Made by a program: the position numbers and the translations under genes
Shown: piece by piece, positions 1 through 22,733 of the stretch
Position numbering within the stretch: the stretch's first letter is position 1
How the letters are laid out: every line of letters begins with the position of its first letter
The notes under the pieces: model-generated
What the model was told of the DNA's origin: nothing
The model's input: the letters and a program-made list of their open reading frames with translations, nothing else
The model's database searches: none
DNA from: Bacteroidia bacterium
Lineage (GTDB): Bacteria > Bacteroidota > Bacteroidia > JADZBD01
NCBI GenBank assembly: GCA_020852255.1
Contig: JADZBD010000015.1
Span: 1 to 64,000 of the forward strand
DNA length: 64,000 bases
Direction of reading: 5' to 3'

Positions 1-1586
1 TCCGCAAAAAGGGACTTCCAACTTAAAAAAGGGGGAAGTCCCTTTTCTTCTTCCCCAAAACTGCCTGATAATCGAGCGATTTCAGCAATTACCGAATTTA
101 TTTTTACGGTTCGAAATGCGCCTAAATTCTTGTCATAGGCTAAACCGGAAGGAAAGACAAGTTTCTGCAATTTCTCCCGTAAGTTCAATCCTCCCTGCGC
201 CCATAATGAGGTGAGATTCAGGCAGAAATTTACTGCTTGCTTGAGTTTTCCTCCGAGGTTCGAAATGGCAACCCCCACTTTAGTCAACTCTGCGAGCATT
301 TTCTCCCGATCACCCGCCAGTTTGCTCGTTAGGCGTTCAAAAACTTCCCTGGTCATTTCTTCCTTGACATAGAATTTTTCTTCCAGCACAACCAAGCCGT
401 TTTCCAGCTCTCCTAATTGCTTTTGGAAGCGTATTTCCTTTTCAGAGCTATCCTTATTAGCTTCATTATAATCATGCTCCAGCTTCCATATAATAGCATC
501 TATAAGGGATTCCTTCACTTGATACTTTCCCAACTCCTCCAGGAACAGTTTGTGCATATCCTTTGCGCTTTTATTACACTTGCATCCTACTTTGCGGCAC
601 TTGTAGTAATAAAGATTCTTTTTCTTAACGATGTAGCCTGTTAAGGGTTCGTTGCAATCCGCACATTTTAGAAACACCTTCAGCGGCACTCCCTCGTTCT
701 CCCTTTTATGCGGTACTCCATATTTTGTGGAGCTAAGGCGAATGTCATTAACCTTATAAAACACTTCCTTGCTCACCATTGGCTCGTGTTTACCTTCAAC
801 CACCTTGCCGTCCAAAATTCCGTGTGCGATTAGACCAGCGTAAAATGGATTTTTAAAGATTTTATAAATACGCTGCTTGTAGGTTTTCACACCGATCTTT
901 TCCAGCATCTTAATGATCTCTTCGTTCTTATACCCCTCCAGCTTCCATTCCCAAGCCTTTCGGAGCTTCTTGCCGTATTCATTCAACACGATCTTTCTCT
1001 CTCCATTGATCTTGACCGTATCATATCCGACAGGGGCTGGAATACACCATTCCCCTTGCTCATACTTTGACTTCAAACCGGCATGAGTTACCTGTTGTCG
1101 TTGTACGTTGTCCCATTTTGCGAAGATGAGTTGCATTTCCTGAAAGAGAACACCATTGCTGTTAGAAGTATCAATAGGTTCGGTTACAGCAATAATGTGA
1201 ATGCCATACTTGCTTCTCAGTTCATCAGCAATAGAAATAGCTTTGCCTCCAGTGCGGCTGAACCTCGTCATTTTATAGACTAAGATAGTGCTGATCTTTC
1301 CCTTACTCCGTTTGCAGAACTCGATCATGCGTTGAAATTCTTTTCGCTCATCGGTCTTTGCGCTCTCATATGTTGCACCAAAGCCCGCTACGATTTGCAA
1401 CTTGAATCTCTTGGCAAATTCTTCAATCGCCTTGTTTTGGTTATCTATGGATTCGTTCGTATCAAACTGTTTTTTGCCCGACACCCGTGTGTACTTAATG
1501 ACCATACGCGAATCCACTTTTTTAATCGTGGTTTTACTCTTTCGCCCGAACTTGTGATTCAAAGCCGCTTGTACTTCTGTATTCAT
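1..1586 (-). CDS. Large serine recombinase/integrase (3' end beyond the window)
   Basis: Site-specific recombinase expected to integrate and excise the element. The reading frame is open from the ATG at 1586 to the window edge, so the C-terminus is missing. The N-terminal resolvase domain carries the YTRVSGKKQ motif with the presumed nucleophilic Ser, followed by KMTRFSR. A recombinase domain (KIFKNPFYAGLI) follows, then a zinc-ribbon segment (KCADC, YYKCRKVGC) and a coiled-coil tail. This is the large serine integrase layout, far longer than small resolvases. The start overlaps the stop of the upstream small gene by ATGA, so the two are translationally coupled. A 13-bp inverted repeat lies inside the visible 3' coding part. 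Confidence 0.93.
   Translation of the reverse strand, partial: MNTEVQAALNHKFGRKSKTTIKKVDSRMVIKYTRVSGKKQFDTNESIDNQNKAIEEFAKRFKLQIVAGFGATYESAKTDERKEFQRMIEFCKRSKGKISTILVYKMTRFSRTGGKAISIADELRSKYGIHIIAVTEPIDTSNSNGVLFQEMQLIFAKWDNVQRQQVTHAGLKSKYEQGEWCIPAPVGYDTVKINGERKIVLNEYGKKLRKAWEWKLEGYKNEEIIKMLEKIGVKTYKQRIYKIFKNPFYAGLIAHGILDGKVVEGKHEPMVSKEVFYKVNDIRLSSTKYGVPHKRENEGVPLKVFLKCADCNEPLTGYIVKKKNLYYYKCRKVGCKCNKSAKDMHKLFLEELGKYQVKESLIDAIIWKLEHDYNEANKDSSEKEIRFQKQLGELENGLVVLEEKFYVKEEMTREVFERLTSKLAGDREKMLAELTKVGVAISNLGGKLKQAVNFCLNLTSLWAQGGLNLREKLQKLVFPSGLAYDKNLGAFRTVKINSVIAEIARLSGSFGEEEKGLPPFLSWKSLFA
7..46. terminator. Terminator-like inverted repeat inside the recombinase 3' region
   Basis: Perfect 13-bp arms (AAAAGGGACTTCC at 7-19 and its complement at 34-46) enclose a 14-nt loop. 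Each strand ends its stem in four T, as in bidirectional rho-independent terminators. The recombinase frame stays open through it, so the last codons may belong to the hairpin or to DNA fused at the junction. Confidence 0.5.
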
Positions 1587-1819
1587 GCTGCCTGTTTTAA
1601 ATTATCCTGGTTATTTTTTTCGTTTAGCTCCTGCTGATATTGGAATTCAACAATAATGCTCACCAATGCTTCAATAGCGAAAAGGATTTCTTGCGCCTGT
1701 TCGTCTGTTAGCTTTTCACCTTTCATCAGTTCCTTTAATTTTTGCACCGTTAACGGTTCCTTCTTTGGATTGATTCCCTGGTACTTTCTTAGCTCAACTA
1801 TTTTTCCTTTTTCCTTCAT
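1583..1819 (-). CDS. Small protein coupled to the serine recombinase
   Basis: A 78-residue protein taken from the internal ATG at 1819; the longer frame to 1876 adds an unlikely N-terminus. It is helical and charged (EKLTDEQAQEILFAIEALVSIIVEFQ) with no recognisable domain. Its stop overlaps the recombinase start (ATGA), a strong sign of coupled expression. A role as recombinase partner or directionality factor is inferred from position only. I do not recognise the family. Confidence 0.6.
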   Translation of the reverse strand: MKEKGKIVELRKYQGINPKKEPLTVQKLKELMKGEKLTDEQAQEILFAIEALVSIIVEFQYQQELNEKNNQDNLKQAA

Positions 1820-1924
1820 GTTTCTATAATTGGAAAAAGGCCCCGCGTATCTTATTAATATATTGATTATCAACATATTACAAATGTACGGAGCCTTTTT
1901 GAATTGGCAAAATCCTAAATAATC

Positions 1925-3649
1925 CTACTCAAAAATGTCCATCGCCCCGCCCTGGTTATACCGTCCGAACTGCACGGCTTTACCGGGCTGGGGTATTTCG
2001 ATCACCACGTCCACATCATGCTGGAATTCGTTCTTGCCCCGGAAGTTTCCGTCTTTGGTCGTCTGAAAAACAAAAATGAATGACTTACCCTTGTGGGTTT
2101 TGCGAAGCGAATCCAGGTGAGCAGGTGAAAGACCGAGCTTGTTCACGCTGTCCAGGAAAATAAAATCATAGCCCGATAAATCTTCAGGAAGGTAATCGCT
2201 CACAAAAAGATTCGGGTGCTTTACGTTTTTATCATTAAGTTTTATCTGTAAGGTTTTGTCAAGCCCTTCTTCCCTTGCCACATACAATACCTTTCCGTGA
2301 TTACGGGCCAGATATCCGGCAAACTCCACGCACAGGTAAGACTTACCCATCTTTGGCCGTCCAAATACCATTGCTGAGAATCCTGGTGCGGGATCTCCTA
2401 TCAGCTCTCTCCACTTTCCGGTAAAGCCGATGGAATCAAATGTCATATCCGCGAATTCCATGCTGCTCATCAGCTTATTGTCCTCGCCTTCCTCGATTCC
2501 ATTCAATCCGCATTCGCACCCCTCAAGATCATCTCCGCTGTGAACTTGTTCCATCCATTCCCAATTAATCGCATTTAACAAGTCATCCATGCTTTTATAC
2601 CAATCGGAATCAAAGCCGAATCCTTCGAGCTTAATGGCTCCAGATTTTTCCTTGCGAATACCTGTAATTAAAATCTGTATTCTGCTCTCATCGGAAGTTC
2701 CTCTCGGATAAAACGGCTTTTTGAATGTGACTATGTTTCCCTTTTTTATCGTCTTAATTCTTTTCTCCCGCGTATCGTATAGCTTTTCTCTTTTACGTGT
2801 TCCCAATAATCCTAACAAGCCATTCAGCTCTGCCGAATTCATCGGAAGGGTTTTTGCTTTTTTATCTTCTAAAAATTCTTTGAGGGATTTCCAGATTTCA
2901 TTGAGCTTAACTGCGTACTTATCGTCCTTTACGATCTTTCCCTTTTTTACCGCCCGATTCATCTGCTCATAAAGCTTTGCTGCCTTCTCCTTTATACCGA
3001 CCTTCCCATGCAGGCTCACGTATCGCTTGATAAACTGGATTGACTTGAAAACACTTTCTCCATTGATCTCTTCCTTGAACTCAGCAATGACCTTTCCAGG
3101 AATCTCGATTTCAGCCGTGCGGCCTTTCATTCCATTGTAAACTTTGAGCAGGTTCTCCTGGATATAAAGCACTTGCTTTGCCCATTCAGATTCCTTCCTT
3201 ATTCTGCGCTCCAGTATCGCCCGCTGAAGGCCGTTGATAAACCGAAGCAGTTCATCTTTGGTCTTGCGCTTGCCATTCAGGTTGAGATACCTTTTCATAA
3301 AACGTAGTTCTTCCGGTATGCGTTCTACAAGCTCGACATCTTCTTCCTCCTCAGCCGCAGGTTCCTTTTCCTTGCGCTCCTTCCTGGGCTTTTCTTCTTT
3401 TGGTTTGCGCTCCTGCTTCTGCTCGGAGGATCGCTGCTTTTTCTCCTCCTTTACAGGAAGATGGCTCGACAGCTTTTCAAAATAGTCATCCACGACTTTC
3501 TTAATGGTGGGACTGGAGTGATAGGTATTCCAGTCCATTCCGCTTTGCGTAACCTTGTTCACGAATTCGTGTCCCTTCTGCAAAGGAGCAGGCAGGGATG
3601 AAATGTCGAGGGAGTTTACCTTGCTGTAATAATTGTCTGCGTTTATCAT
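1925..3649 (-). CDS. RadA/KaiC-like RecA-fold ATPase with duplicated N-terminal domain
   Basis: 574 residues. Residues 60-105 are a highly charged low-complexity linker. Two homologous units of about 60 residues follow (about 114-172 and 203-261; FMKRYLNLNGK against FIKRYVSLHGK), an internal duplication. The C-terminal third is a RecA-superfamily ATPase: Walker A GRPKMGKS (430-437), Walker B DFIFLD (495-500), then FQTTKDGNFRGKNEFQHDVD, which parallels the RadA KxG segment. It follows the giant helicase gene by 12 bp. It could serve in viral DNA replication or recombination. It is not an FtsK/HerA-type packaging ATPase by motif, and the ATPase sits too far C-terminal for a terminase. Confidence 0.75.
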   Translation of the reverse strand: MINADNYYSKVNSLDISSLPAPLQKGHEFVNKVTQSGMDWNTYHSSPTIKKVVDDYFEKLSSHLPVKEEKKQRSSEQKQERKPKEEKPRKERKEKEPAAEEEEDVELVERIPEELRFMKRYLNLNGKRKTKDELLRFINGLQRAILERRIRKESEWAKQVLYIQENLLKVYNGMKGRTAEIEIPGKVIAEFKEEINGESVFKSIQFIKRYVSLHGKVGIKEKAAKLYEQMNRAVKKGKIVKDDKYAVKLNEIWKSLKEFLEDKKAKTLPMNSAELNGLLGLLGTRKREKLYDTREKRIKTIKKGNIVTFKKPFYPRGTSDESRIQILITGIRKEKSGAIKLEGFGFDSDWYKSMDDLLNAINWEWMEQVHSGDDLEGCECGLNGIEEGEDNKLMSSMEFADMTFDSIGFTGKWRELIGDPAPGFSAMVFGRPKMGKSYLCVEFAGYLARNHGKVLYVAREEGLDKTLQIKLNDKNVKHPNLFVSDYLPEDLSGYDFIFLDSVNKLGLSPAHLDSLRKTHKGKSFIFVFQTTKDGNFRGKNEFQHDVDVVIEIPQPGKAVQFGRYNQGGAMDIFE

Positions 3650-3661
3650 GGTAATTAGTTT

Positions 3662-6600
3662 TTATGCTGCCATTAGTTCGAGTTCAAGAGCCAGGGCTTC
3701 TGCTTCCAGCTCATATATTTTCATCATGTCGCTATTTTCTTCCTCTGCCGGAGGAGCCAGAATCTTCCTTCGGGACGAACTGCGCTTGTGCTTTTCATCC
3801 TTTATCATATCAAACTGGAAGTTGGTGAGGGTTATGGCGGAACTGAATTTGTCCTGGAGGATTTCAATAAAGGGTTCAATCTTTTTGAAAGGAAACGTAG
3901 AGACCATTTTATCTGAAACCTTATCGAAATTGTTCCCGTCCACGATCTCCAGAATATCTCTATCCAGGTAAATTTCTCCGCCCTTAACACGCGAAGCAGG
4001 TACGATCACCTTGAACCCTTCGCCCTGCCGGAATATCCCGATGTTATTATTGGTGTAGATAGCAGCACCGTTAGCCAGGGATTTTATAATCGTGATCGCT
4101 TTACCAATAGGAACAACCACTTTATCTCCGATATGCTCTGCTGGAATCCAGTTCTCAGGCATCAGGATTCCCTTCTTGACCTCTCCATCCTTCATAGTAT
4201 AGCTCACCAGCTTTCCCTTGAAATCGCTGAACGCTTGGAGCAGGTTTCCGGTTATGATATGCCGGGTCTTGCGGTCCGTTACATTGTTCTTAATAGCCTT
4301 TTCCCAATCAGCCAGGAATTCTTCCTTCCCTGTGTCCTCAACCCCTGTGCTGGCTCCCATGATGGCTGTAATGTCATCCGAATAGCTGGCAGGAATAGCG
4401 ATGTACTTGCTGCTGTTTGCAATGGCAAAGCGCAGCTTCATCGCGCTGGGTGCGTACGGATTCTTCTTTTTCTTGTCTATAATGAATCCCAAAAAGGTTG
4501 AAAGGATGAGTTCCTGCCCTTCACTATATGACTGAATGGGATAACTCAGCCTCTTACCGATATGGAAGTATTTGAATATCCGCTTTAGATACTGCGAACG
4601 ATTTTCAAATGAGGTTTGCGTTTGCTCAAGCTGTTTCTCTCTTGCATCGTTGAGCTCTTTCTCGCGTTCATTTATAGCATCAAGCCTTTGCTTTTCGCTT
4701 TTGATCTTCTGAATTTTCTTTTCACCTGGAATCTCCTTTATCAGTTCATCATATTTATCATTCACTTCTTTCGTTTCTTCCTCCAGGCGTTTAGCAACGA
4801 AGATTTCATATTCGCTCTGAAGCTCTGCCTGTAACGCATGAGCGTCCATTTTGCCGAGCGATTCTTTAAGCAGGTTCTCCAACTCCGTTTTTGAGAAAGG
4901 TTTTTTCAGCACGTTAGCTTTTACCGTTTCCAGGATGCTGTCATCTCCGAAAGTGCTGTCACCGCCTTTGCCCATCTTGATAATGCTCCTGCCGGTACGC
5001 TCTGCTTGCAAATCCATTGCCTCCACTTCCAGATCATATTCGCCTATCTGTTTGAGGTATTCGGTAAAGTCATTGTACCGCTCCGCAATTTCATTGTAGA
5101 AGTCCTGCTGCATTTTGGTGGAAAGAACGGCTACTCGTCCGGAGACCTTGTGCGCTGCATCTTCCACCGTTTCCTTGTCATCACTTTTGGTTGTTTTCAG
5201 GTGAAGGGGATCATTGAGCAGTTCGTTTACTGCGGGATTCTCGATCAGGTATTCCTTCACGATCTTATCTCCGTATTTATTCAGGAAATCCGGCACATCA
5301 AGAATTTTAGTGCTTTGCTTTTGATTGGAGGTAGTATTTGCATCCAGGGACTTGAGTTTCTTCTGAAGCATCATCATCAGCCGCTTCTCTGCTGGTATTG
5401 CAGAGTTCACATAGTCGTAAATCGGTTTTAGAATTTGACCCGTGCGGTTAATGCGACCGCGCTTCTGCACTTCGGTATTGATGTCAAGCTCTGCCTGAAG
5501 CACGATCATTACACGCTGTTTTACTTCCGAGGCCGGAACCTTCGCAGTAGGAATTGCATGAGCCGATGCACCCGTGCTGCCGGACTGATTAATCATCAAC
5601 ACATCCACTTCGTTGTTGTTGAATTGACGGAAAGCATCATTGGTGTTGATGCGTTTGCGCTGAAGCACCAGCCCCTTGCTTGTTTTTGAATTGATTTGGA
5701 GTTCGTATTTCCTTCCGGTTACTTCGGCAACGGAATATCCTGCGTCCTGGATTTTCTTTATGACAATATCAATCGGAGAAATGGTGATCCCGGTGGAAGC
5801 CGCTTTTATCCTCTCCATGATCCGAGTGTACTCTACCTGGGCTTCTACCGATAAATCCGAAATCTCAAACTTTTTGTGAATGGGGTTTCCATCTACATCC
5901 CGCTCCGTATAGCGCAGAATTCCTTCAAGTCCGCGCTTGAGAACTTCGGTGAAGTCAGCATTGATAACATCTCCATCCGAAACGAACACGCCTTTTTCAT
6001 TTTCCATTTGCTCAATGAAACTGCCCATTGTGGAAGCAAATGCAATGATGGGTTTCTTGCCTTCTTTGAGCCGCATGATCGCTCTTTCGGCAACCGCTTC
6101 GGCTTTCAGGGAGAAAAGCATCTGGTTAATGACGTTGAAGACCTTTGAGAAATAAGGTTGGCTATCAACTCCGGCCTGTGAAGTTCCTTCACGCAGTTCC
6201 ACTTCCTTTCCCTCCGCAGCCGCTATTTTGTCAAGCTCCTCAACCTGCTTGTCAACGAAATGCTTTTGAAAGGAAATAATATCGCGGAGGATTTCCGTAA
6301 TGTTATCGGCAATGGCGTAGTGTTCCTGCTCCAAGTTGTCCAGCGTGATGTAATTCACTTCCACCCCCTCGAATGAACGCTCCCTGCGAAGCATCTGTCC
6401 TTCGGCTACAAGCTGACTGGATAAAACCTCCTGCAAAGCCACGCCTCCCCGGATAATGGCCTCTACAAGTTCATCCTTTGTCATGTTCGCATCTGAGATT
6501 GCAGTCTTCATCGCGTAGATGGGCATATTGTCCGCTCGTTTGGCGAAAGTTGCCGAGAGAAACACCACGCCCTTTGTATCGGCCACGACAGACTGCATGA

Positions 6601-8806
6601 ACTCTCCTGTGTTGGATGATCCGCTTGAGTTATGAGCTTCATCCAGGATCATAATGTTTCCCTGGGCAATTTCCCGCAGGAAGCCGGGCTTCTCCGGTTT
6701 TTTCTCCGGTGAATTGAACTGAGAATAGGTAGCAAGTACAAAGTGATACTTGCCGGGAACTTTGCGGCTTTCAAAAACCCTTTGCTGCTCATTAGCCGGT
6801 AATGCCTGGTGAATCACATTGCCGTCTTCGTCTTTTACATCTGTTTTGGATTCCCTGCCGTTCACAATAAACGGAATCAGGTTGGCCGAGCCTATTGCCG
6901 CAAGGTCGCGGTAGATGTCAGAGAAAAGATTGGCCTTTTCAGTAATAAAAACTGGCTTTAATCCCTGCTTTACCCCGTAACGGATCATCGAAGCTGCCAC
7001 ACGACCTTTGCCGATGCCTGTCTGATCCCCGATAATCATTCCCTGGCTTCGCGCCTCGATATTGTAGATAGCCATTGCAACCGCATCAATCTGCTCTGCG
7101 GATAAAGACTTGCAGAGTTCTGTTTTGGTGCGGTAACCCAGGCGATGACGCACAAAATTGTCAATATCCCCGCCAACTTCTTCCCGGATCAGCTCCAGGG
7201 CTTTCTGCGTTTCAAAGCTCATAGAATCGGGAACCTGGGTATTTAGCACAACGCAGGCTGCCGAAGCTGGAACATAGGGAGATCCCAAATCAGGAAAACC
7301 AAGCTGGCTTTGAAGTTCCAGGGCCTCTTTTTCTAACTGTGGTATATTTTGTTTCATGGCATTGGTTACTCTTTCGTATAGTGCCTCAAATGATTTTACA
7401 GTTTCAGCGATCACGCTGCTTTTAGTCGGGGCTGCGCCTCTGGCCGGACGTTTCCTTCCGTCAATAAGAATCATCCTCACGTCAAATGAAGTTCCCTGGC
7501 GGGAATAGAGGCTGCCGTCAATATTGATTACATCTATGACGTTATATCGGCTGTACAGGTAATTAAAAAAGATTCGATTCCTTCCGGCCTGAATCCTTCC
7601 CTTGTCGTCCCATCGCGTATGTCCCCCGATAATAATTGCAGCCCTGCCGCGATCCTTCATGCAGTCCAGCGCACGCAAAGCCATCAGGTGATCCAGCGTT
7701 CTGATCGGAAAAGTGTCGAACATCGCCTCCGTGTCCAGCGTTCCGAATGGTGGATTGGTAATGACTGCATCCATCTTCTGATAGAACTCCGGGAATGCAC
7801 TCGTGGCATCACGTTTCATTACCTGCTTAAAGCCTTGCGTTTGTAAGTTCTCCCTACGGAAAGGATCAATTTCATTGACCACGATATTTTTCTCATCTCC
7901 CGCGATAGTAAGCAGGCCATTTCCCGCGCTTGGCTCAAATACCATTGCTCCTTTATCGGCTCCTACGAATATTCCTGCAAGGAATCCGATGGGAGCTGGC
8001 GTAGAATATTGCTGAAGCAGTATGCTTTGGCTGGTGCGGTGGGACAGATTCACCTGACTTTTATAAAGCTCTACAATGGAATCATACCGTTCCTTTACTC
8101 TACCAGGTGTATGAGCAAGAACTCTTGCCCTGCGAACAATGGCCAGTTCGGTAAGTTCCTTGACCTGGTTCTTGTCATTAATACCGAATGTGGCTGCAAG
8201 TTTCTCAATGGAACGCTTGGTGTAATGAACTTTATTTGCCAAATCCTTTTCGACCCTCTCCACAAACTTCAACTTGGTATCGAAGCCGTTCAACTCCGTG
8301 CCAAGCATACCTTCATCTGCAAATGAAAAATAACTGTCAGCCGTAATGATTACATGGTCGAGCAGTTGTATTTCCATCGTTGCCGCACTCTCCTTTATTT
8401 TTTTAGTCAACTCAATGTCTGCCTCGCTGGGTCTGGAATTTCCGCTCGGATGGTTATGGGCAACGATAATGGAGGTACTTGCGCTCTTGAGAGCAGCCGC
8501 CAGGATGATTCTTATGTCCGCTACTGTTCCCGTGATCCCGCCAACTGCGTGTCTGTAATACCCGATGATGTTATTGGCCCTGTTCAGATAGAGAACAATG
8601 AACTGTTCCTGCAACTGGATTTCGCCTCGCCTGTAAACTTTGCGAATGAAATCGGCTGCATCCTGTGATCTGCCAACTGATCCGTAATGCTTTTTCCTGG
8701 ACGAGCGGTTAAGCCGAAGTTTCACTTCAGGAACCTCGCCTTCGCGCAAGACTCCCAAAGTGAAAATGGTTTCAGGTTTTTGAAAATATTTCTTCGGCCT
8801 CTTCAT
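3662..8806 (-). CDS. Giant fusion: RadC/JAMM domain, N6-type DNA methyltransferase, Strawberry-notch helicase
   Basis: 1714 residues. A RadC-like MPN domain comes first with a complete JAMM set (E67, HNHPSGNSRPSEAD at 117-130). A SAM-dependent methyltransferase follows (motif I EPSAGNG near 291; NPPF at 351-354). Then comes an SF2 helicase of the Strawberry-notch type: Walker A GDQTGIGK (593-600), DEAH (722-725), SAT (751-753) and the QKRGRINRTGQ arginine-finger region around residue 1150. The last 400 residues include a long coiled coil (RLDAINEREKELNDAREKQL). Comparable methylase-helicase fusions occur in phages and plasmids; DarB of phage P1, an injected anti-restriction protein, is the best-known analogue. 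Function here is inferred: genome protection or replication. Confidence 0.85.
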   Translation of the reverse strand: MKRPKKYFQKPETIFTLGVLREGEVPEVKLRLNRSSRKKHYGSVGRSQDAADFIRKVYRRGEIQLQEQFIVLYLNRANNIIGYYRHAVGGITGTVADIRIILAAALKSASTSIIVAHNHPSGNSRPSEADIELTKKIKESAATMEIQLLDHVIITADSYFSFADEGMLGTELNGFDTKLKFVERVEKDLANKVHYTKRSIEKLAATFGINDKNQVKELTELAIVRRARVLAHTPGRVKERYDSIVELYKSQVNLSHRTSQSILLQQYSTPAPIGFLAGIFVGADKGAMVFEPSAGNGLLTIAGDEKNIVVNEIDPFRRENLQTQGFKQVMKRDATSAFPEFYQKMDAVITNPPFGTLDTEAMFDTFPIRTLDHLMALRALDCMKDRGRAAIIIGGHTRWDDKGRIQAGRNRIFFNYLYSRYNVIDVINIDGSLYSRQGTSFDVRMILIDGRKRPARGAAPTKSSVIAETVKSFEALYERVTNAMKQNIPQLEKEALELQSQLGFPDLGSPYVPASAACVVLNTQVPDSMSFETQKALELIREEVGGDIDNFVRHRLGYRTKTELCKSLSAEQIDAVAMAIYNIEARSQGMIIGDQTGIGKGRVAASMIRYGVKQGLKPVFITEKANLFSDIYRDLAAIGSANLIPFIVNGRESKTDVKDEDGNVIHQALPANEQQRVFESRKVPGKYHFVLATYSQFNSPEKKPEKPGFLREIAQGNIMILDEAHNSSGSSNTGEFMQSVVADTKGVVFLSATFAKRADNMPIYAMKTAISDANMTKDELVEAIIRGGVALQEVLSSQLVAEGQMLRRERSFEGVEVNYITLDNLEQEHYAIADNITEILRDIISFQKHFVDKQVEELDKIAAAEGKEVELREGTSQAGVDSQPYFSKVFNVINQMLFSLKAEAVAERAIMRLKEGKKPIIAFASTMGSFIEQMENEKGVFVSDGDVINADFTEVLKRGLEGILRYTERDVDGNPIHKKFEISDLSVEAQVEYTRIMERIKAASTGITISPIDIVIKKIQDAGYSVAEVTGRKYELQINSKTSKGLVLQRKRINTNDAFRQFNNNEVDVLMINQSGSTGASAHAIPTAKVPASEVKQRVMIVLQAELDINTEVQKRGRINRTGQILKPIYDYVNSAIPAEKRLMMMLQKKLKSLDANTTSNQKQSTKILDVPDFLNKYGDKIVKEYLIENPAVNELLNDPLHLKTTKSDDKETVEDAAHKVSGRVAVLSTKMQQDFYNEIAERYNDFTEYLKQIGEYDLEVEAMDLQAERTGRSIIKMGKGGDSTFGDDSILETVKANVLKKPFSKTELENLLKESLGKMDAHALQAELQSEYEIFVAKRLEEETKEVNDKYDELIKEIPGEKKIQKIKSEKQRLDAINEREKELNDAREKQLEQTQTSFENRSQYLKRIFKYFHIGKRLSYPIQSYSEGQELILSTFLGFIIDKKKKNPYAPSAMKLRFAIANSSKYIAIPASYSDDITAIMGASTGVEDTGKEEFLADWEKAIKNNVTDRKTRHIITGNLLQAFSDFKGKLVSYTMKDGEVKKGILMPENWIPAEHIGDKVVVPIGKAITIIKSLANGAAIYTNNNIGIFRQGEGFKVIVPASRVKGGEIYLDRDILEIVDGNNFDKVSDKMVSTFPFKKIEPFIEILQDKFSSAITLTNFQFDMIKDEKHKRSSSRRKILAPPAEEENSDMMKIYELEAEALALELELMAA

Positions 8807-15703: not shown

Positions 15704-15742
15704 AAAAAAGGAGCGGGAGGGCATGGCTCCCTCTCCGCTCCT
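15704..15742 (-). terminator. Strong rho-independent terminator after the candidate capsid gene
   Basis: On the minus strand a GC-rich stem (GGAGCGG + GAGGG pairing with CCCTC + CCGCTCC) is followed by six T. It begins 11 bp after the stop of the 242-residue gene. Partial termination here would give a short abundant transcript for that gene. A second small hairpin (CCACGCC...GCGTGG, 15745-15764) overlaps the stop codon. Confidence 0.85.
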
Positions 15743-15753
15743 TGCCACGCGGA

Positions 15754-16482
15754 TTAAGGCGTGGTGATGGTTCCGTGCAGGCCAGCCCATACCTGGGTGT
15801 TGGGCGCGATACCTGCCATTGTGCCAAGCTCAAGGGTCAACTCGATGAGGATGTCATCGTGAATGAGCCTGGGGTTAGCGAGCTTGTAGTAGCCCATCGG
15901 AACGAGGTGGTTGGCTTGTGTTTTAAACACGCTGTTGCTGGTGTCGGGAACGATCTGCTTTTTGTTCGCCTTCAGGTTGAACTCCCCATTAGCAATAGCC
16001 GGGAACAGTTCCACGAAGTTGTAGGGCGTGGACATGATCGCATCCTTACTCGGGTCGGCAGCAACACCGCCCAACAAGATGATCCCGCTTACCAGGAGAG
16101 CCTGGTTCTTGGGCAGCTTCGCATTAGAAATGTTGCGAAGTCCGATCTCTTTGTCATCTTGCGTTTCAAACAGCTTGATCGTTTTGCTTGTCACGGGTTT
16201 GATCGAGTAGATCACCGTGTCGGCCAGGCGCAGTTCGCCTTTAGCCAGGGCGGTTTTGATGTGCGGAGGAAGCTCATTGAAATGTTTCTCCATTTCAGCA
16301 CGGCTACCCTTGCTCGGTGTCGGGTTGGTGGTGAGCTTGTTCAGCGTCCGCATCCTTTTCACAGGATTCATCTTCTGAAGTGCGCCCATTACTTCGCCCA
16401 CGAGTTCATCATTTTCTCCGTCCAGTCCCAGCAACGCTCCCGCGTTGTTGTACTCTTCTGTTGCGTTTAATTCTCCAAACAT
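15754..16482 (-). CDS. Candidate major capsid protein
   Basis: 242 residues with no signal peptide or membrane helix. The N-terminal 65 residues are helical (VMGALQKMNPVKRMRTLNKL); the rest is strand-rich and ends in DILIELTLELGTMAGIAP, then TQVWAGLHGTI. It stands alone between a 130-bp gap and its own strong terminator, as highly expressed capsid genes often do, and lies at the head of the beta-rich gene run. Length is near that of small double jelly-roll capsid proteins such as PM2 P2. No sequence motif proves it, and an HK97 fold is not excluded. Confidence 0.5.
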   Translation of the reverse strand: MFGELNATEEYNNAGALLGLDGENDELVGEVMGALQKMNPVKRMRTLNKLTTNPTPSKGSRAEMEKHFNELPPHIKTALAKGELRLADTVIYSIKPVTSKTIKLFETQDDKEIGLRNISNAKLPKNQALLVSGIILLGGVAADPSKDAIMSTPYNFVELFPAIANGEFNLKANKKQIVPDTSNSVFKTQANHLVPMGYYKLANPRLIHDDILIELTLELGTMAGIAPNTQVWAGLHGTITTP

Positions 16483-16537
16483 GGTTTTTTTGGTTTTTAG
16501 TGGTTATTATTTTCGTTTTGGTCAAGACTCACGCTTA

Positions 16538-16602
16538 ACCCTGCTATTTCAGGGGTCTTTGTAAGCTGTATTTTTCGGGATTTACTTTGCTGCGTATGCA
16601 GC
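16538..16602. other. Two small hairpins in the gap upstream of the candidate capsid gene
   Basis: CCCTG/CAGGG arms (16539-16554) and GCTGC/GCAGC arms with a GTAT loop (16589-16602) lie in the 131-bp gap before the 242-residue gene. Neither has a T run in the gene direction. They may be RNA processing or stabilising structures. No TAnnTTTG box was found in the gap. Confidence 0.3.
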
Positions 16603-16613
16603 CAATTCAATTT

Positions 16614-17228
16614 TTAGTAGTTCGTATCGCGTGGATCAATCTCGCCCATAAGGGTTCCCATGTTTTTCTGCTGAAAGGATTCTCCGCTTTCAACTACCTG
16701 CTTTTCCAACCTGTCCAGGGCAGTGAGATCAAGGTCCTTTCCCTGACCAAGCTCTTTGTTATCCGGGTAAGTGAAATATTGCACTTCACCTACGCCATTA
16801 GTGGCTTCTTTCTTTTCTTCTTTCTTCTTCATCACCTTATCCAGATAGAGTTTTTGGGAGAAGGTATCTTTGAATGCCACTACGCGATCCTTCGCGCCCT
16901 CGATCATGCCCTCCAGTCCTTCTTTCTGCGTTCCCTTCATTTCGGTGTTGCTTTGCTGAAAGCCATTTGCGGCCATCATGCCCACTCCGAATATGGAAGC
17001 GAGGCGGCTTTTGTAGTAGTGTCCGAGGCCGGTTATTGCTGCCCCTACGATCAGTGATGCCCTTCCGATTGCGGAACCGGCAACGCCTCCCGCCACCACG
17101 CCCACCACTACATCTTTCAGCGTTTCGATAGCGGAGTTCTTTGCATCGCCCTTCGTCTCCAGGTCTGCGGTAATGGAACCGAGTAGGGATTTTTTTTGGG
17201 CGGCTCGTTGATAAGAATTTTTGCTCAT
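16614..17228 (-). CDS. Glycine-rich membrane protein
   Basis: 204 residues. Residues about 37-110 hold a Gly/Ala-rich hydrophobic block (VVVGVVAGGVAGSAIG, SLIVGAAITGLGHYY, IFGVGMMAANGF) typical of glycine-zipper membrane proteins; the remainder is charged and helical. In membrane-containing viruses, similar small proteins sit in the internal lipid layer. It lies just upstream of the candidate capsid gene. No family was recognised. Confidence 0.5.
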   Translation of the reverse strand: MSKNSYQRAAQKKSLLGSITADLETKGDAKNSAIETLKDVVVGVVAGGVAGSAIGRASLIVGAAITGLGHYYKSRLASIFGVGMMAANGFQQSNTEMKGTQKEGLEGMIEGAKDRVVAFKDTFSQKLYLDKVMKKKEEKKEATNGVGEVQYFTYPDNKELGQGKDLDLTALDRLEKQVVESGESFQQKNMGTLMGEIDPRDTNY

Positions 17229-17262
17229 TGCTTTTTTTGTTTAATTGGTTTATGATTTACTT

Positions 17263-18762
17263 TTATCTGAGAGCCACCGCGTTTTTCTTCTCGTGGCCTT
17301 GCTTGCTTTTTGTTCCCGAAAGTGATTTTTGTTTTTGTTCCTTGCCGGATGAAATGGCCTTGTATCCGAGAAAAAGAAGGCCAACTCCAGTTGCACCGAT
17401 CAGCGTAGGCTTGAGCCAGCTTTTGTTTTTGTCCCAGAAGCCTTCTTTTTCAGATGTATCCTGGCTGTTGCTGTCAGAGGAAGTTTTCTGATTGCTTTCC
17501 GGTGAGGAGGAATCGCTGCCGGAATCCACACTCATGGTGCTGATCTCATTTTTGTTCTGCTCGATCTCGGCAGTCAGGTTGGTGCTGTCGCTCTGTTTTT
17601 CAGCAGTCTCGTATTCTTTGGATTCGGGTGAATCTTTCTTCGGGAAAATGTTGCCTATGGATTTCAAAAGTCCGGCAATGACGGCCAGCGCACCGGAAGC
17701 GGCAGTAATCGAGGCTGCGGTAACAGGTTCTCCTAGTTCTCCCAGGGTTTCTTCATTTTCTCCCAGGAAAATGTCGTTTCCGAGCAGTTCAGGAAGTGGG
17801 GTAAGCTGGTTCACGTTACCCAAACCCTTTACGTCATGGTTCTTGTTGCCCTTGCCGGTGAGAATTGCAGCCTTCAGGTTTTCCGGCTTTCCGCCCGCAC
17901 CGAAGAAAATGCTCTCCAGTTTGGTCTTGACCGTTTTCAACTTTTGAAACTTCGCCATGTCAACACCACGCTTCTGGGCTTCCGCATCACTCAGGTAAGC
18001 ATACTTCAGGCGACTGGCCACATTCATCAGGTTCAGCTTCATCGCAGCCAGCACTCCGTTGCGAAGCAGAACGGTTGCCGGGTTTGCACGGTTCACCACA
18101 TGGGCAGCCTTTTTCACGAACTGTTTCAGCCCGCCCTTCTTTTCCTTTTTTGGCGCAAAACTTCCTGCTGATTTTTTCTTAAAGAGTTTTCCGAACTCTT
18201 CCGTTTCACCAAATCCGCTGAGGTACTGTAATTCCATTTTTGTGTCTTTTATTTCTGTATAGGGTTCTTCGTAGTTGTAATAATCCACCACACAATCCAG
18301 GGTGATATACCTGCCGCCTGCCTTGTGTACAATCGGATAGATGTGCTGGAAGTAATCCTTCTTGTAGCGGGCTATCCGTAGGGAGTGCGGGATTTTCAGG
18401 TTCGTCAGAATGCTGCTGATGAATACTGAGTAACAATCGCAGTCAACTCCCCGGTGGCGGTCGTGCCACGTTCGGGCTGGGGATCGTATCTGTTCCTTCC
18501 CTTCCTCATCTTTGTGGTAGCGAATGTGCCTGTACACAAAATCCCAGATATTCTTACAGGTTTCATTCTGATTCTTTCCGCGAAGCATATCGGCAACATC
18601 CCTGGTTTGTGCAAGCGTGTCGCGTACCACTTTGGGAATGAACTTCACTGTATCGGAAACCGTAGCTCCCTTCTTCACCGTTTCCTCCTTGAGGTCAGCC
18701 GGTGGGAACAGAGCGTTATACTGCGTCCCTGATTCGATACTTCTATGCGTTAGTGCTTCCAT
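17263..18762 (-). CDS. Transglutaminase-like cysteine protein with C-terminal membrane segments
   Basis: 499 residues. The N-terminal domain is transglutaminase-like: RGVDCDCYS (Cys108), FQHIYPIV (His140) and YITLDCVVD (Asp156) form a plausible Cys-His-Asp triad. A basic helical middle follows, then a hydrophobic Ala-rich segment (ASITAASGALAVIAGLLKSI), a Ser/Glu-rich linker and a final membrane helix (TLIGATGVGLLFLGYKAI). Such domains usually act as peptidases or peptide hydrolases. The start overlaps the previous stop (TAATG). It may be a virion protease or entry enzyme; it is not a portal by any visible feature. Confidence 0.75.
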   Translation of the reverse strand: MEALTHRSIESGTQYNALFPPADLKEETVKKGATVSDTVKFIPKVVRDTLAQTRDVADMLRGKNQNETCKNIWDFVYRHIRYHKDEEGKEQIRSPARTWHDRHRGVDCDCYSVFISSILTNLKIPHSLRIARYKKDYFQHIYPIVHKAGGRYITLDCVVDYYNYEEPYTEIKDTKMELQYLSGFGETEEFGKLFKKKSAGSFAPKKEKKGGLKQFVKKAAHVVNRANPATVLLRNGVLAAMKLNLMNVASRLKYAYLSDAEAQKRGVDMAKFQKLKTVKTKLESIFFGAGGKPENLKAAILTGKGNKNHDVKGLGNVNQLTPLPELLGNDIFLGENEETLGELGEPVTAASITAASGALAVIAGLLKSIGNIFPKKDSPESKEYETAEKQSDSTNLTAEIEQNKNEISTMSVDSGSDSSSPESNQKTSSDSNSQDTSEKEGFWDKNKSWLKPTLIGATGVGLLFLGYKAISSGKEQKQKSLSGTKSKQGHEKKNAVALR

Positions 18763-19241
18763 TACTTTTTGAGCGTTGCTTCTTCCGTTTTTTCGTAAGG
18801 CAGTTTTTTCCAGCCCAGGTCAATCGTTGAAATCGTTTTGGTCGTGAGCTTGATGGATTCGCCTGCCAGTAGGGACTTAATCATGCCCGCGCTTATCGAA
18901 AAGATGTTGCGGGGCGGTATCGTAATCATGATCTTTTCCGCAACCGCTTCACCGTAGGCCGGGATTTCAATATCCTTGTTCACTACCTGAGAGCTGCCTA
19001 CCGTTGCATCTTTGTAGATGAGCTTGATGAAAGGAAACTTGATCTTGAATTTTGTCGCAGTCGGGTTTTTGAGCTGCACGTCCACACGAAGCACCAGGCC
19101 GCTCAGATCGAGCTTGAAGATGTTCACCGTCACTACGGATTCCAGTTCCACACCTGTTCGTTTCAGACGGAACAGATAGGTTGCCCCCGCAATGATTCCT
19201 CCACCAATGGCAGAGCCGACAATGATTTTCTTCAAGTTCAT
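18762..19241 (-). CDS. LEA14-like (LEA type 2) protein with N-terminal membrane anchor
   Basis: 159 residues: a Gly-rich membrane helix (IIVGSAIGGGIIAGATYLF), then an immunoglobulin-like beta domain with the LEA14/WHy pattern (LSGLVLRVDVQLKNPTATKF, then PFIKLIYKD and IPAYGEA). LEA14 domains bind surfaces and stabilise other proteins; a catalytic role is unlikely. It is the second gene of the late operon, coupled to the 66-residue gene by ATGA. A virion membrane protein or adaptor is possible. Confidence 0.6.
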   Translation of the reverse strand: MNLKKIIVGSAIGGGIIAGATYLFRLKRTGVELESVVTVNIFKLDLSGLVLRVDVQLKNPTATKFKIKFPFIKLIYKDATVGSSQVVNKDIEIPAYGEAVAEKIMITIPPRNIFSISAGMIKSLLAGESIKLTTKTISTIDLGWKKLPYEKTEEATLKK

Positions 19242-19438
19242 TTTCCCTTCTTGTTTTTAATTCTTTCGCTCAGGTAATCGCTTGCAATTTTGAACACCAG
19301 CCAGATTGAGCCACCAATAGCGGCCTTCACCGCGTATTCAGCCAGGCCGGAAGCATCCAGGTTGGCAAACAGGATGGCTCCGGTTAAAAAGAAGTTGGAG
19401 CTTCCATCGTTGTGTGTTGTTGTGTGTCTTGGTTCCAT
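19238..19438 (-). CDS. Small membrane protein, first gene of the late operon
   Basis: 66 residues. A hydrophilic His/Thr-rich N-terminus, a hydrophobic stretch (FFLTGAILFANLDASG) and a second one (AAIGGSIWLVFKIASDYL) are followed by a basic tail. It resembles holins or small virion membrane proteins. It lies directly downstream (minus strand) of the 20-bp repeat array, so its promoter is probably inside or next to that array. Confidence 0.5.
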   Translation of the reverse strand: MEPRHTTTHNDGSSNFFLTGAILFANLDASGLAEYAVKAAIGGSIWLVFKIASDYLSERIKNKKGK

Positions 19439-19483: not shown

Positions 19484-19560
19484 ATTTCCAGTTCGCGTAT
19501 GTTCATGTCAGTTCGTGAAAAACATTTCCATATCACGTAGAACATTTCCAGTTTGTGTTA
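19484..19560. repeat. Array of four 20-bp repeats in front of the late operon
   Basis: Four units start at 19484, 19504, 19524 and 19544, an exact 20-bp period (two helical turns). The plus-strand consensus is ATTTCCAGTTCGTGTA plus four bases; the second unit is divergent (CATGTCAGTTCGTGAA). The same family occurs at 20337-20412, and both arrays contain the identical 17-mer GTTCATGTCAGTTCGTG. Position just upstream of a leftward operon suggests regulator binding sites; no standard -7 box was seen nearby. Confidence 0.8.
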
Positions 19561-19797
19561 CCGTTTTTCATCCTTGTTGGGGTCCATTGTATGTGGAAAG
19601 CAGAGGTTCTGAAAGATGACCTTCACCTGCGGAATGGTATAAAAGCGGCCTTTCTTTTCACCCACTTCATTTTTAAATTCGTTGATCCACTTTTTTAATG
19701 TCCTGTTGCAGACCCCGTAGATTTTCGCAAGCTCCGTAAGCGTGTAAGGCTTTACTGGAACCTGCATTTTTGCTTCTTCGTTGTTATTCTTTTCCAT
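19558..19797 (-). CDS. Small helix-turn-helix DNA-binding protein (paralogue of the one at 21.5 kb)
   Basis: 79 residues. KPYTLTELAKIYGVCNRTLK and WINEF form a helix-turn-helix like those of small MerR/excisionase-type proteins in Bacteroidota elements. GRFYTIPQVKVIF recurs as GKYYTLNQVRLII in the protein at 21450-21656, showing paralogy. It probably binds the control-region repeats; this is inferred from position next to the array. Confidence 0.7.
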   Translation of the reverse strand: MEKNNNEEAKMQVPVKPYTLTELAKIYGVCNRTLKKWINEFKNEVGEKKGRFYTIPQVKVIFQNLCFPHTMDPNKDEKR

Positions 19798-19809: not shown

Positions 19810-20247
19810 TTAAGCGCAGAAGTGAAAGTGATTGAGTATCGGGTTGAGATTTTCTTCGCAGCTCTGGCAGAACCTCGCCTGTTTCCGTCTTTCGAGGTTT
19901 CGGAGATACCATGCCTTCGTTCCGGAAAAGCCTTTGGGATTGTCCTTATGCAGCCAGATGCAGGGATGAGGGATGTAGCGGTGAGCAAAGCGGCTCACGT
20001 ATTCCTTCGCCAGCAGGATTCTTTCGCAGTAAGCTGTAAAATGCTTATGGGCTGTGGCGGTGAATTCCTCGGCAGGAATTTCTTCATAGTATTCCCGGAT
20101 AAAGAGTTTTGAAAGTTCTACTTCTGCTTTTCTGAAAGGATAACCACCCCACAGTATGCTGTGCGCGAAATCCCAGGTGGCATTCGTGAGAAGTTGGATC
20201 GCTGCCGGATGCACACGCATTTTTGAATTGTTCTTAATTGTTCTCAT
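19810..20247 (-). CDS. Unknown protein with C-terminal Cys pair
   Basis: 145 residues from the ATG at 20247. The longer frame to 20481 would put repeat array B inside the gene, so the short start is preferred. No family was recognised. The protein is rich in aromatic residues and His (FAHRYIPHPCIWLHKDNPKG) and ends with ARFCQSCEENLNPILNHFHF, where the CxxC and His could form a zinc site. It sits downstream of the repeat cluster and may be an early regulator or replication protein. Confidence 0.5.
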   Translation of the reverse strand: MRTIKNNSKMRVHPAAIQLLTNATWDFAHSILWGGYPFRKAEVELSKLFIREYYEEIPAEEFTATAHKHFTAYCERILLAKEYVSRFAHRYIPHPCIWLHKDNPKGFSGTKAWYLRNLERRKQARFCQSCEENLNPILNHFHFCA

Positions 20248-20296
20248 ATTGTCTGTATTGTTTTCTGATTGTTCAGTATTTGTTCCGTAATTGTTC
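20227..20296. repeat. Seven ATTGTTC repeats at about 10.5-bp spacing
   Basis: Copies of ATTGTTC (two degenerate, one ATTTGTTC) start at 20227, 20237, 20248, 20257, 20268, 20278 and 20290, close to one helical turn apart. The array covers the start codon of the 145-residue gene and its leader. Such phasing places all copies on one face of the DNA. Confidence 0.65.
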
Positions 20297-20336
20297 GGTG
20301 ATCTGTACCGCGAAAATGGGGTGGCATTTTGACCAC

Positions 20337-20412
20337 GATTCCAGTTCATGTCAGTTCGTGCAGGTTGACGCAGAACATTTCCTGTTCGCGTAAAACATTT
20401 CCAGTTCGTGTA
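20337..20412. repeat. Second array of the 20-bp repeat family
   Basis: AGTTCGTG-type cores lie at 20343, 20363 (degenerate), 20383 and 20403, a 20-bp period, with an extra core at 20353. The two right-hand units match the ATTTCCAGTTCGTGTA consensus best. It shares a 17-bp identical stretch with the 19.5-kb array, so one protein probably binds both places. Confidence 0.75.
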
Positions 20413-21449: not shown

Positions 21450-21656
21450 TTATTCACCAACTGTACCAGGCAGGCCGATCAGTTTTATAATTAGTCTCAC
21501 TTGATTCAGCGTGTAATACTTTCCCGTTTTAGGGCCTACCTGTGGTTCAATTTTTTTGAGCCAGGTATAGAAACAGCGGGGACTTATTCCGTAAATGATC
21601 GCCAGTTCTTTCTTCGTGTAGGGCTTAATTTCTAACAATTTGTTTTTACTCTCCAT
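21450..21656 (-). CDS. Small helix-turn-helix DNA-binding protein
   Basis: 68 residues, paralogous to the 79-residue protein at 19558-19797 over nearly its whole length (PYTKKELAIIYGISPRCFYT). It is likely an excisionase-like or transcription factor. It is the first gene after the repressor-type gene in the leftward direction, the expected place for an early regulator. Confidence 0.7.
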   Translation of the reverse strand: MESKNKLLEIKPYTKKELAIIYGISPRCFYTWLKKIEPQVGPKTGKYYTLNQVRLIIKLIGLPGTVGE

Positions 21657-21686
21657 GACTAAATGGTATTTGTGGAACTTACATAT

Positions 21687-22733
21687 TTACTCAGCGTATT
21701 TGGCCATAAACTCCTCCAGTTCCAGATGCAACGATGCTGCCAGCTCTTTGGAAGTGAATTTATGGACGTTCTTGTATTTAGTAATCAGGTCGCGCATCAA
21801 AATGGATTTCTCTTTCGGAAAATCCAACTCGATGGGTTCGCGCCTGCGTATTTTTAATTGGTTGAATTGCGAAAGCAGGTATTTCTTTTGGTTCTCAGTA
21901 AAAAAACCCAGGTCGGCAGCACGGTACAGGAGCGAGATCATGGAAACCTTCCATTTGCGCTTCAGTTCTCCGAGCAAGGGAATGGTAACGCCTTTTTCAA
22001 ATTCCTTTCGCATTTCGTTTTCGGGCATCAAAAGGCCTGCTGCGAATAGGTTTGCCTCGTGCGAAATGTCCCGGTCATGTGATGGAAGCGTATGGCCGTG
22101 CATGACCAGGTGGCCCAACTGATAAGCCAGGCTGAACCGCTGCCTGTCGGCAAGGTGCAGTTTGTTCACTACAATGATCGGATGCTTGTCTTTGGTAAGA
22201 ATCGTACGGCTATCCACACGCTCAGTTCCGAAATCGAAAGAAATAACAATGATCCCATTGGCCTCCAGCAGTTCTGTAAGGTTGGTGATAGGGCCTTTCG
22301 GCATCTTCCAGGCTTTTCGCAATTGCATCGCTACCTGTTCTTCGGAGCCGACCTTTTTCAAGTCTAAATCAGGGATATTGGGAACCGGGAGCTTGATCTT
22401 ATGGCTGATGATTTCAGTATTGAGCCTGTAAATGTTGAGTTGAGCCTCCAAAGGCATCAGAACCTTTGCCGAAACGTGATCCCGTTTGCGGTAATTCAGG
22501 CTCATCGGCAGGTAGGCTTCTCCTTCCTGGTAAAAGAATTCCCTGGGATATTTGAGCAGCTTGCTCATCCGCTCCAGGGTAGGCTCAGGCATTGATTTAT
22601 TATCCGTCTCGATCTTGCAAATAAAGCCCGGAGAAGTGTTTAGCTTCTCAGCCAATTCCTTCTGCGACATAGCCCTGGATTCCCGCGCCAGGACGACCAT
22701 TTTAGGGTTAATCTGTATTTCGGTAGCAACCAT
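21687..22733 (-). CDS. XRE repressor fused to a degenerate ImmA/IrrE peptidase domain
   Basis: 348 residues. The N-terminal XRE helix-turn-helix (MSQKELAEKLNTSPGFICKI) is followed by an ImmA/IrrE-like domain. The usual zinc motif HExxH reads YQLGH (204-208), so the first zinc His and the catalytic Glu are replaced, while the downstream EANLFAAGLLMP element is kept. Family members usually sense damage and control mobile-element genes by cleaving a repressor; this copy is probably peptidase-dead and acts as a regulator. It reads divergently from the XRE gene at 22937. Confidence 0.8.
   Translation of the reverse strand: MVATEIQINPKMVVLARESRAMSQKELAEKLNTSPGFICKIETDNKSMPEPTLERMSKLLKYPREFFYQEGEAYLPMSLNYRKRDHVSAKVLMPLEAQLNIYRLNTEIISHKIKLPVPNIPDLDLKKVGSEEQVAMQLRKAWKMPKGPITNLTELLEANGIIVISFDFGTERVDSRTILTKDKHPIIVVNKLHLADRQRFSLAYQLGHLVMHGHTLPSHDRDISHEANLFAAGLLMPENEMRKEFEKGVTIPLLGELKRKWKVSMISLLYRAADLGFFTENQKKYLLSQFNQLKIRRREPIELDFPKEKSILMRDLITKYKNVHKFTSKELAASLHLELEEFMAKYAE

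Follow-up and report, generated by a model that had tools for sequence, protein, structure and literature searches.

A probable group of tailless temperate proviruses in Bacteroidota, with predicted single-jelly-roll capsid proteins and a link to phage SSIP-1

The window analysed here is the whole of a 64,000-nt stretch from a Bacteroidia bacterium (assembly GCA_020852255.1, contig JADZBD010000015.1, positions 1–64,000), whose first 22,733 nt hold a leftward block of genes that an earlier note had read as a candidate tailless, possibly membrane-containing temperate virus. The open reading frames (ORFs) whose sizes that note had listed (66, 159, 204, 228, 293, 499, 242, 127, 200 and 106 amino acids, aa) are all present at those sizes on the minus strand. 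The virion-type and core genes, including two homologues of virion proteins from the membrane-containing phage SSIP-1, are as follows:

1925–3649, minus strand: 574-aa homologue of SSIP-1 gp40, RecA/RadA-like ATPase in its C-terminal part; the module ends with this gene
3662–8806, minus strand: 1714-aa RadC–N6-methylase–Strawberry-notch helicase fusion (Pfam)
8810–9337, minus strand: 175-aa fast-evolving protein (46/50 full-length loci)
12421–13107, minus strand: 228-aa membrane-anchored core protein (50/50 loci; retained in diverged loci)
13112–13294, minus strand: 60-aa core protein (50/50 loci; retained in diverged loci)
13583–14395, minus strand: 270-aa core protein (50/50 loci)
14401–14721, minus strand: 106-aa core protein (50/50 loci)
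14699–15301, minus strand: 200-aa spike or receptor-binding candidate, probably paralogous to the 127-aa protein
15298–15681, minus strand: 127-aa putative capsid protein with a single jelly roll, either the penton or a second major capsid protein
15754–16482, minus strand: 242-aa presumptive major capsid protein, with a helical arm (1–83) and a single jelly roll (85–242)
16614–17228, minus strand: 204-aa Gly/Ala-rich hydrophobic protein, virion-membrane candidate (hydrophobic segment in 82% of relatives)
17263–18762, minus strand: 499-aa SSIP-1 gp34 homologue, transglutaminase-like and with hydrophobic segments
18762–19241, minus strand: 159-aa core protein with an N-terminal membrane segment (50/50 loci)
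19238–19438, minus strand: 66-aa small core protein, weakly hydrophobic (48/50 loci)

This block is more than a chance arrangement, because the genome (G000, 3.28 Mb) carries five copies of the element, that of the window and four on other contigs, because a 17-gene module keeps its order in ~90 Bacteroidota loci, and because the ratio of nonsynonymous to synonymous divergence (dN/dS) is mostly 0.00–0.11. The search for the same block in related genomes that the earlier note had suggested thus returned these ordered loci, as well as tRNA-abutting ends in three of the sister copies. The 242-aa protein of the window is 99, 88, 75 and 73% identical to those of the four sisters. Genes for the 159-, 499-, 204-, 242-, 127-, 200-, 106-, 270-, 60- and 228-aa proteins occur in all 50 loci with full flanks, and those of the lysis side in 41–48 of them. 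Ten diverged loci share this order for most of the 159, 499, 242, 127, 200/106, 270, 60 and 228 families, and three of the ten, when extended, terminate in an ATPase of the 574-aa type. Between the window and its sister copy C18, synonymous divergence is ~0.3–1.5 and the low dN/dS range holds for nearly every module gene, with minima for the 127-aa (0.00) and 242-aa (0.015) proteins; the exceptions are a 101-aa ORF (0.18) and a few fast genes that are saturated. Such low values are not expected of decayed or chance ORFs, which says that the module genes are functional and under strong purifying selection. Synonymous divergence from G000:C18 dips in the capsid genes (15298–16482; 0.29 and 0.44 vs ~1 elsewhere), which may come from a strong bias in codon use or from exchange among the proviruses of this genome.

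A profile of the 242-aa protein identified 101 loci in a one-genome-per-species collection. The best 80 of these, from which taxonomy and copy numbers were taken, are from Bacteroidota, bar a few titled only 'bacterium', and many belong to Chitinophagaceae/Chitinophagales; several genomes among these listed matches carry two or three loci, and the listed loci include cultured strains of Chitinophaga, Flavisolibacter, Flaviaesturariibacter and Puia, among them Chitinophaga sp. S165, Flavisolibacter nicotianae X7X and Puia dinghuensis. The same profile was positive in 3 of 395 sampled genomes of the phylum, and that of the 127-aa protein, of longer reach, in 32 of the 395 genomes sampled from the class. 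The 242-aa protein had no match in the GenBank phage set, and scans of IMG/VR returned two contigs only. From the 32 class genomes set against these two results, current virus-finding seems to miss the group.

Of the proteins that the earlier note proposed to fold and compare (242, 127, 200 and 106 aa), those of 242 aa (alignment of 55 sequences) and 127 aa were modeled with AlphaFold2, and both came out as single jelly rolls. The 242-aa model consists of a helical arm and one beta sandwich (residues 85–242), with a mean predicted local distance difference test score (pLDDT) of 73.6. Against the PDB, the vertical single-jelly-roll capsid protein of Sulfolobus polyhedral virus 1 (SPV1, 6oj0_A; Portogloboviridae) was the top match both in Foldseek (E 6e-5) and in VIA (Z 10.3, 151 residues, 3.4 Å), and the sole one clear of the common Z range. 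The next VIA matches were single barrels of double-jelly-roll capsid proteins (Z 7.5–8.8), together with PHM, a cellular protein of jelly-roll fold whose comparison with such capsid proteins is not new (PMC8812541), and the single-barrel capsid proteins of HHIV-2, SH1, HCIV-1 and P23-77 (VP17) scored Z 6.8–7.5. Among the predicted viral structures of BFVD, I1ZBH9 (211 aa) and I1ZBI0 (256 aa) are also matched; by their lengths and consecutive accessions, they are presumably SSIP-1 gp46 and gp47. The 127-aa model is an eight-stranded jelly roll (pLDDT 93). The 200-aa protein is probably a paralogue of the 127-aa protein, judging from an hhalign match of the two profiles, built without shared members (66.7%, E 5.3e-5, 116 columns), and from diverged homologues that match both. 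Its identity to the C16, C22 and C1 copies is 22–37%, and this far greater variability among co-resident copies, as would be shown by a receptor-binding spike, makes it a spike candidate. The models thus predict a capsid of upright single-jelly-roll proteins.

Double-jelly-roll capsid proteins do appear in the fold list of the 242-aa protein, at the Z values given above, the FLiP penton is a weak match in Foldseek, and the host of FLiP is of the same phylum, all of which would suit a membrane virus with double-jelly-roll capsid proteins, like PRD1, PM2 and FLiP. We consider that reading improbable, since both folded candidates have one jelly roll, the 242-aa model aligns to one barrel of the double-barrel proteins, and no homologue was found in PHROGs, Pfam or phage records; a double-jelly-roll capsid protein was not found among the two folded candidates.

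Details of SSIP-1 are taken here from reviews (PMC6260650, PMC6356626, PMC5332951) and from its GenBank annotation. It is a tailless, membrane-containing phage of ~44 kb, with T=49 and a suspected single-jelly-roll capsid (PMC6260650, PMC6356626, PMC5332951), and had hardly any similarity in GenBank (PMC6356626). The 499-aa protein had a sole match among 50,697 phage records, SSIP-1 gp34 (E 8e-5), which profiles of the 499-aa family recovered with E 3.7e-13 and 1.1e-16 (hhalign 96.5–97.4%); gp34 scored 51.7 bits with the 499-aa profile vs 29.6 with the best Pfam transglutaminase model. The 574-aa profile matched SSIP-1 gp40 (E 4.8e-12), and the ATPases of diverged loci, which match 574-aa relatives with E 1e-134 to 1e-145, reached gp40 in single-sequence searches at 1e-12 to 1e-14. 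Both gp34 and gp40 are annotated as structural (virion) proteins in SSIP-1. The 574-aa ATPase also matches PHROG 6891 'ATPase' (E 1.8e-19), AAA_24/AAA_25 and RadA/DnaB-like PHROGs, and the gp40 link appears weaker than that of gp34, RecA-type ATPases being a broad family. For the capsid genes, the connection with SSIP-1 lies in fold and gene neighbourhood, without a sequence link.

The earlier note had reported no terminase, portal, tape measure, tube or sheath gene, and the profile searches agree: no protein of the window element matched portal, large terminase, HK97, tape-measure, tube or sheath families in Pfam, PHROGs or NCBIfam, and the only packaging- or tail-labelled matches were at noise level (E 0.004 or weaker), such as a small-terminase/helix-turn-helix (HTH) match to a 68-aa HTH protein. 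This bears on whether the element could be the remnant of a tailed phage, or a satellite using the capsid or tail of a helper, with the jelly rolls as decoration, spike or fibre proteins. Single jelly rolls are indeed found as decoration or fibre domains of tailed phages, a Pam1 capsid chain being in the 127-aa list, and some of the lysis genes are common to crAss-like phages. Nevertheless, we give a remnant or satellite little credence: the element holds no terminase, portal or capsid remnant, the loci compared have no additional conserved structural gene, and the module is complete, strongly selected and includes the two homologues of SSIP-1 virion proteins.

Hydrophobic segments are conserved in the 159-, 204-, 228-, 293- (81% of relatives) and 499-aa proteins, as well as in the lysis-type proteins of 95 and 215 aa. 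The earlier count of at least six short proteins with membrane segments therefore stands for the first five of these, but the 66-aa protein is only marginally hydrophobic. A virion with an internal membrane, which had been put forward as a possibility, is plausible and even probable by analogy, from the likeness to SSIP-1 and these segments. In L022, L039, L058, L078, L092 and other loci, a gene of ~180 aa with a hydrophobic N-terminus lies between the 242- and 127-aa genes. Its product reads as lysozyme-like, without a match in Pfam, and is possibly a virion-associated cell-wall enzyme; it was rejected as a second capsid protein because of this reading and of an hhalign score of 0.09% to the 242-aa protein.

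The 1714-aa protein contains RadC, methylase-signature and Strawberry-notch helicase domains in Pfam. Bacteroides phage BS-TP4 (PQ571277.1, L108) has at 1511–17686 a 5391-aa ORF directly before its portal gene, and the 1714-aa protein is 34% identical to part of it over 85% of the 1714-aa length. SSIP-1 gp43 is a 2319-aa methyltransferase annotated as a virion protein; we do not claim homology of the 1714-aa protein to it, the E value being only 0.008. The DarB protein of phage P1 is a giant methylase-helicase that is carried in the virion and protects the injected DNA. The gp43 annotation, the position of the BS-TP4 ORF and P1 DarB together suggest a virion-borne role, and we propose that the 1714-aa protein may be a DarB-like, injected anti-restriction protein. 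It is alike to DarB and to the BS-TP4 ORF in being a giant methylase-helicase, and differs in its fusion to RadC; its own place in the virion is predicted by analogy. The size above 22 kb and the fusion, seen as unusual in the earlier note, are not odd for the group, SSIP-1 having 43.8 kb and its own 2319-aa virion methyltransferase. In the C1 and C22 copies and many loci elsewhere there is a gene of ~275–290 aa instead of, or besides, the fusion, whose product, by our own reading of its sequence, looks like a D12/Dam-type methylase.

The ends of the element and its genes for integration, regulation, lysis and defence are the following:

1–5, plus strand: attL, TCCGC, the five terminal bases at the 3′ end of a tRNA-Ser, where the contig breaks
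1–1586, minus strand: large serine recombinase (integrase) of at least 528 aa, running off the contig; sister copies abut tRNA genes
1583–1876, minus strand: 97-aa accessory protein downstream of the integrase, kept beside it in C18 and C16
9539–10186, minus strand: 215-aa spanin/holin-like protein, with membrane segments at both N and C termini (hydrophobicity; 47/50 loci)
10183–10470, minus strand: 95-aa holin-like protein with a hydrophobic segment (hydrophobicity)
10430–11149, minus strand: 239-aa lysis-type protein (PHROG endolysin, E 5.9e-19)
11107–11541, minus strand: 144-aa N-acetylmuramoyl-L-alanine amidase (endolysin; Pfam Amidase_2, E 1e-17)
11538–12419, minus strand: 293-aa protein with an N-terminal membrane segment and an endolysin/peptidoglycan-binding-like region (PHROG endolysin, E 5.9e-8)
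19558–19797, minus strand: 79-aa HTH-like protein, candidate regulator or excisionase, with a conserved place upstream of the module
19810–20361, minus strand: 183-aa conserved protein upstream of the module (60 loci)
21450–21656, minus strand: 68-aa HTH-like protein adjoining the repressor
21687–22733, minus strand: 348-aa putative lysogeny repressor, HTH and M78 (IrrE-like) peptidase (Pfam Peptidase_M78, E 2.5e-19; HTH_3)
22937–23242, plus strand: 101-aa divergent XRE-type regulator (C18 copy 87.6% identical)
24039–26484, plus strand: Lamassu-like LmuC/LmuB defence cargo (PADLOC LmuB, E 9e-39; LmuC, E 5e-4)
44402–44416, plus strand: candidate attR, repeat of the tRNA-Ser 3′ end (CCCTCTCCGCAAAAA; 15-base match)

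The serine recombinase, the HTH–M78 repressor and the Amidase_2 and lysis-type proteins confirm the integration, repression and lysis genes reported earlier. The recombinase profile matches the DNA invertase gp3 of SSIP-1 (E 2.5e-9). The 239-aa lysis-type protein has relatives with 37–45% identity in crAss-like phages, large Bacteroides phages and Pseudoalteromonas phages ACA1/ACA2, and its gene has apparently been swapped between tailed and tailless viruses.

The left edge of the window is a contig end (G000:C15), and the left part of the element therefore stops at the contig break. The window opens with TCCGCAAAAAGGG, the tRNA-Ser junction seen in the C18 and C16 copies, and the junction TCCGCAAAAAGGGAC is also found at their complete tRNA-Ser genes. 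The recombinase abuts tRNA-Ser(TGA) in C18, tRNA-Ser(GCT) in C16 and tRNA-Leu in C1, so that an integrase gene lies next to a tRNA gene in three copies, and it overlaps the tRNA-Ser gene in C18 and C16. The candidate attR coincides with a rise of G+C from a low to the host value. Given this 15-base tRNA-end repeat at 44,402–44,416 and the G+C step there, the provirus most likely spans ~1–44,416 (~44.4 kb), its right border being a candidate, and 1–22,733 would most likely be one half of a larger element, with the genes for integrase, virion and lysis and also the repressor. The virus-like block of over 22 kb described earlier is thus real, but the element continues past 22.7 kb to the candidate attR. 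Direct repeats at the right end were looked for in the C16 and C1 copies and none were found; for C18 there is one weak candidate, at C18:113,212. Two provirus copies lie ~44–60 kb apart on one contig in JAIUNM010000001.1 (L057/L060) and JALHRL010000001.1 (L064/L090), possible tandem lysogens.

The LmuC/LmuB pair and a restriction-type helicase (24039–28374) adjoin the repressor. Cargo at this site varies: the window has Lamassu-like genes and C18 a type III restriction-modification system, and the C1 copy has a run of helicase-type genes inside the element, of which the tested gene (L020) matches an HKD/SNF2 helicase model. By its gene content, the site beside the repressor reads as a defence-cargo hotspot of the virus group. 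The stretch from the repressor to the candidate attR (22900–44400) is low in G+C and its cargo is odd for a virus, with an RND-type efflux operon and its TetR-type regulator (35,959–42,526) and radical-SAM-like and glycosyltransferase-like genes. Defence cargo, several copies per genome and strong conservation could also mark a particle that the host has domesticated and retains, a machine like a gene-transfer agent. This we regard as very unlikely: the element has its own integrase, repressor and tRNA junctions, its cargo and ends are varied, it is patchily spread (the capsid profile being positive in 3 of the 395 genomes of the phylum), and the co-resident capsid proteins are 73–99% identical, as from separate infections.

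The best explanation, and one we hold to be quite likely, is a group of tailless temperate single-jelly-roll proviruses of Bacteroidota related to SSIP-1. The tailless temperate virus of the earlier note thus gains support from an integrase, a repressor, lysis genes, single-jelly-roll proteins and two SSIP-1 virion homologues, without packaging or tail genes of tailed phages. The serine recombinase would integrate the genome, as a circle, at the 3′ terminus of a gene for tRNA-Ser, where the junction is seen, and the HTH–M78 repressor, to judge from its domains, would maintain lysogeny until induction. The leftward operon would then be expressed to build a capsid of upright single-jelly-roll capsomers, with the 242-aa protein, by its predicted fold, as the major one; the 127-aa protein, also of predicted fold, and the paralogous 200-aa protein may be a second capsid or penton protein and a variable spike. 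The 159-, 204-, 228-, 293- and 499-aa proteins would line or cross an internal lipid membrane, and the gp40-like ATPase, by homology, may serve genome packaging. The RadC–methylase–helicase would ride in the virion and shield the entering DNA, as P1 DarB does. Finally, the amidase, peptidoglycan-binding, holin-like and spanin-like proteins would lyse the cell, and defence genes would be carried beside the repressor.

Several points weigh against this explanation. Particles, lipid, induction and a packaging motor are all predicted from genes alone. The 242-aa model is of medium confidence (the five models range over pLDDT 58–74), and the fold matches of the 127-aa protein are middling, the best being cellular PHM (Z 8.5), followed by a HHIV-2 chain (8.3) and SPV1 (7.8). 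In sequence, the capsid proteins matched neither SSIP-1, even with expanded profiles, nor any capsid protein of solved structure. The gp40 link involves a generic RecA-type ATPase, and Pfam AAA_25 scores gp40 about equally. No FtsK/HerA/A32-type packaging ATPase was found among the element proteins in Pfam or PHROGs, which need not be fatal because SPV1 also lacks a packaging ATPase (PMC8812541). The attR is a 15-base match and nothing more. Lastly, a circular free genome was not found, both IMG/VR contigs being classed as linear.

The group is apparently large and not previously described; no description of it was found in the literature searched, where coverage was thin for subscription journals and preprints. 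The known tailless single-jelly-roll viruses of bacteria amount to a few isolates, which come from extreme habitats (PMC6356626, PMC5332951), and the relatives reported here occupy dozens of ordinary environmental Bacteroidota. Since these include cultured strains, the particle, the membrane and packaging are testable. The RecA/RadA-like ATPase bears on the origin of packaging motors in jelly-roll viruses. We suggest more tentatively, with less than even confidence, that the group might be a new family- or order-level temperate lineage with an SPV1-like capsid protein and a RecA/RadA-like virion ATPase replacing the FtsK/HerA motor, present in several percent of Bacteroidia genomes and often several times per cell; if so, the group would join SSIP-1, until now an orphan, to the basal part of the lineage of single-jelly-roll viruses.

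On present tests, the element is not a double-jelly-roll virus, nor a member of Caudoviricetes or Halopanivirales. The marine 'Charybdis' single-jelly-roll elements (PMC12324425) were rejected as kin, being small circular elements of different anatomy. PM2, PRD1 and FLiP, the resemblance first proposed, are tailless with an internal membrane, as is probable for the window element, but have double-jelly-roll capsid proteins and genomes of ~9–15 kb (PMC6260650), whereas the 242- and 127-aa proteins are single; SPV1 is the best fold match, and SSIP-1 is the virus indicated by gene content. Halopanivirales (Sphaerolipoviridae, Simuloviridae, Matshushitaviridae; SH1, HHIV-2, SNJ1, P23-77) share upright single-jelly-roll capsid proteins; the two major ones of Helvetiavirae/Halopanivirales may be set beside the 242- and 127-aa single jelly rolls of the window, with the 200-aa probable paralogue. 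Their barrel proteins, however, are not related in sequence to those of the window, whose capsid proteins showed no Halopanivirales homology in PHROGs, phage records or PDB sequence profiles; the window ATPase is RecA/RadA-like and not of FtsK/HerA type, and Simuloviridae genomes are of 16–19 kb (PMC12642351), the window element being far larger. SPV1, regarded as a pre-duplication single-jelly-roll state (PMC8812541), is the closest solved fold for the 242-aa protein, but has an archaeal host, and no sequence similarity or common genes were found. By gene content, the nearest known relative is SSIP-1, the orphan membrane-containing phage of a salt-loving bacterium. It differs in its capsid proteins, without detectable shared sequence, in its gene order, with gp34, gp40 and gp43 ahead of gp44–48, in its tyrosine-type integrase, vs a serine recombinase in the window, and in host, the window group being found in Bacteroidota, many of them Chitinophagaceae-type and soil, freshwater and groundwater metagenome-assembled genomes. 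Both have a gp34-type protein (transglutaminase-like, with a C-terminal hydrophobic segment), a gp40 ATPase and a giant methyltransferase, carried in the virion in SSIP-1, and genome sizes are close (43.8 kb vs the 44.4-kb candidate provirus); a single-jelly-roll capsid has been suggested for SSIP-1 too (PMC6260650, PMC6356626), a virus that is tailless and membrane-containing, as the window element, known from its genes alone, would be.

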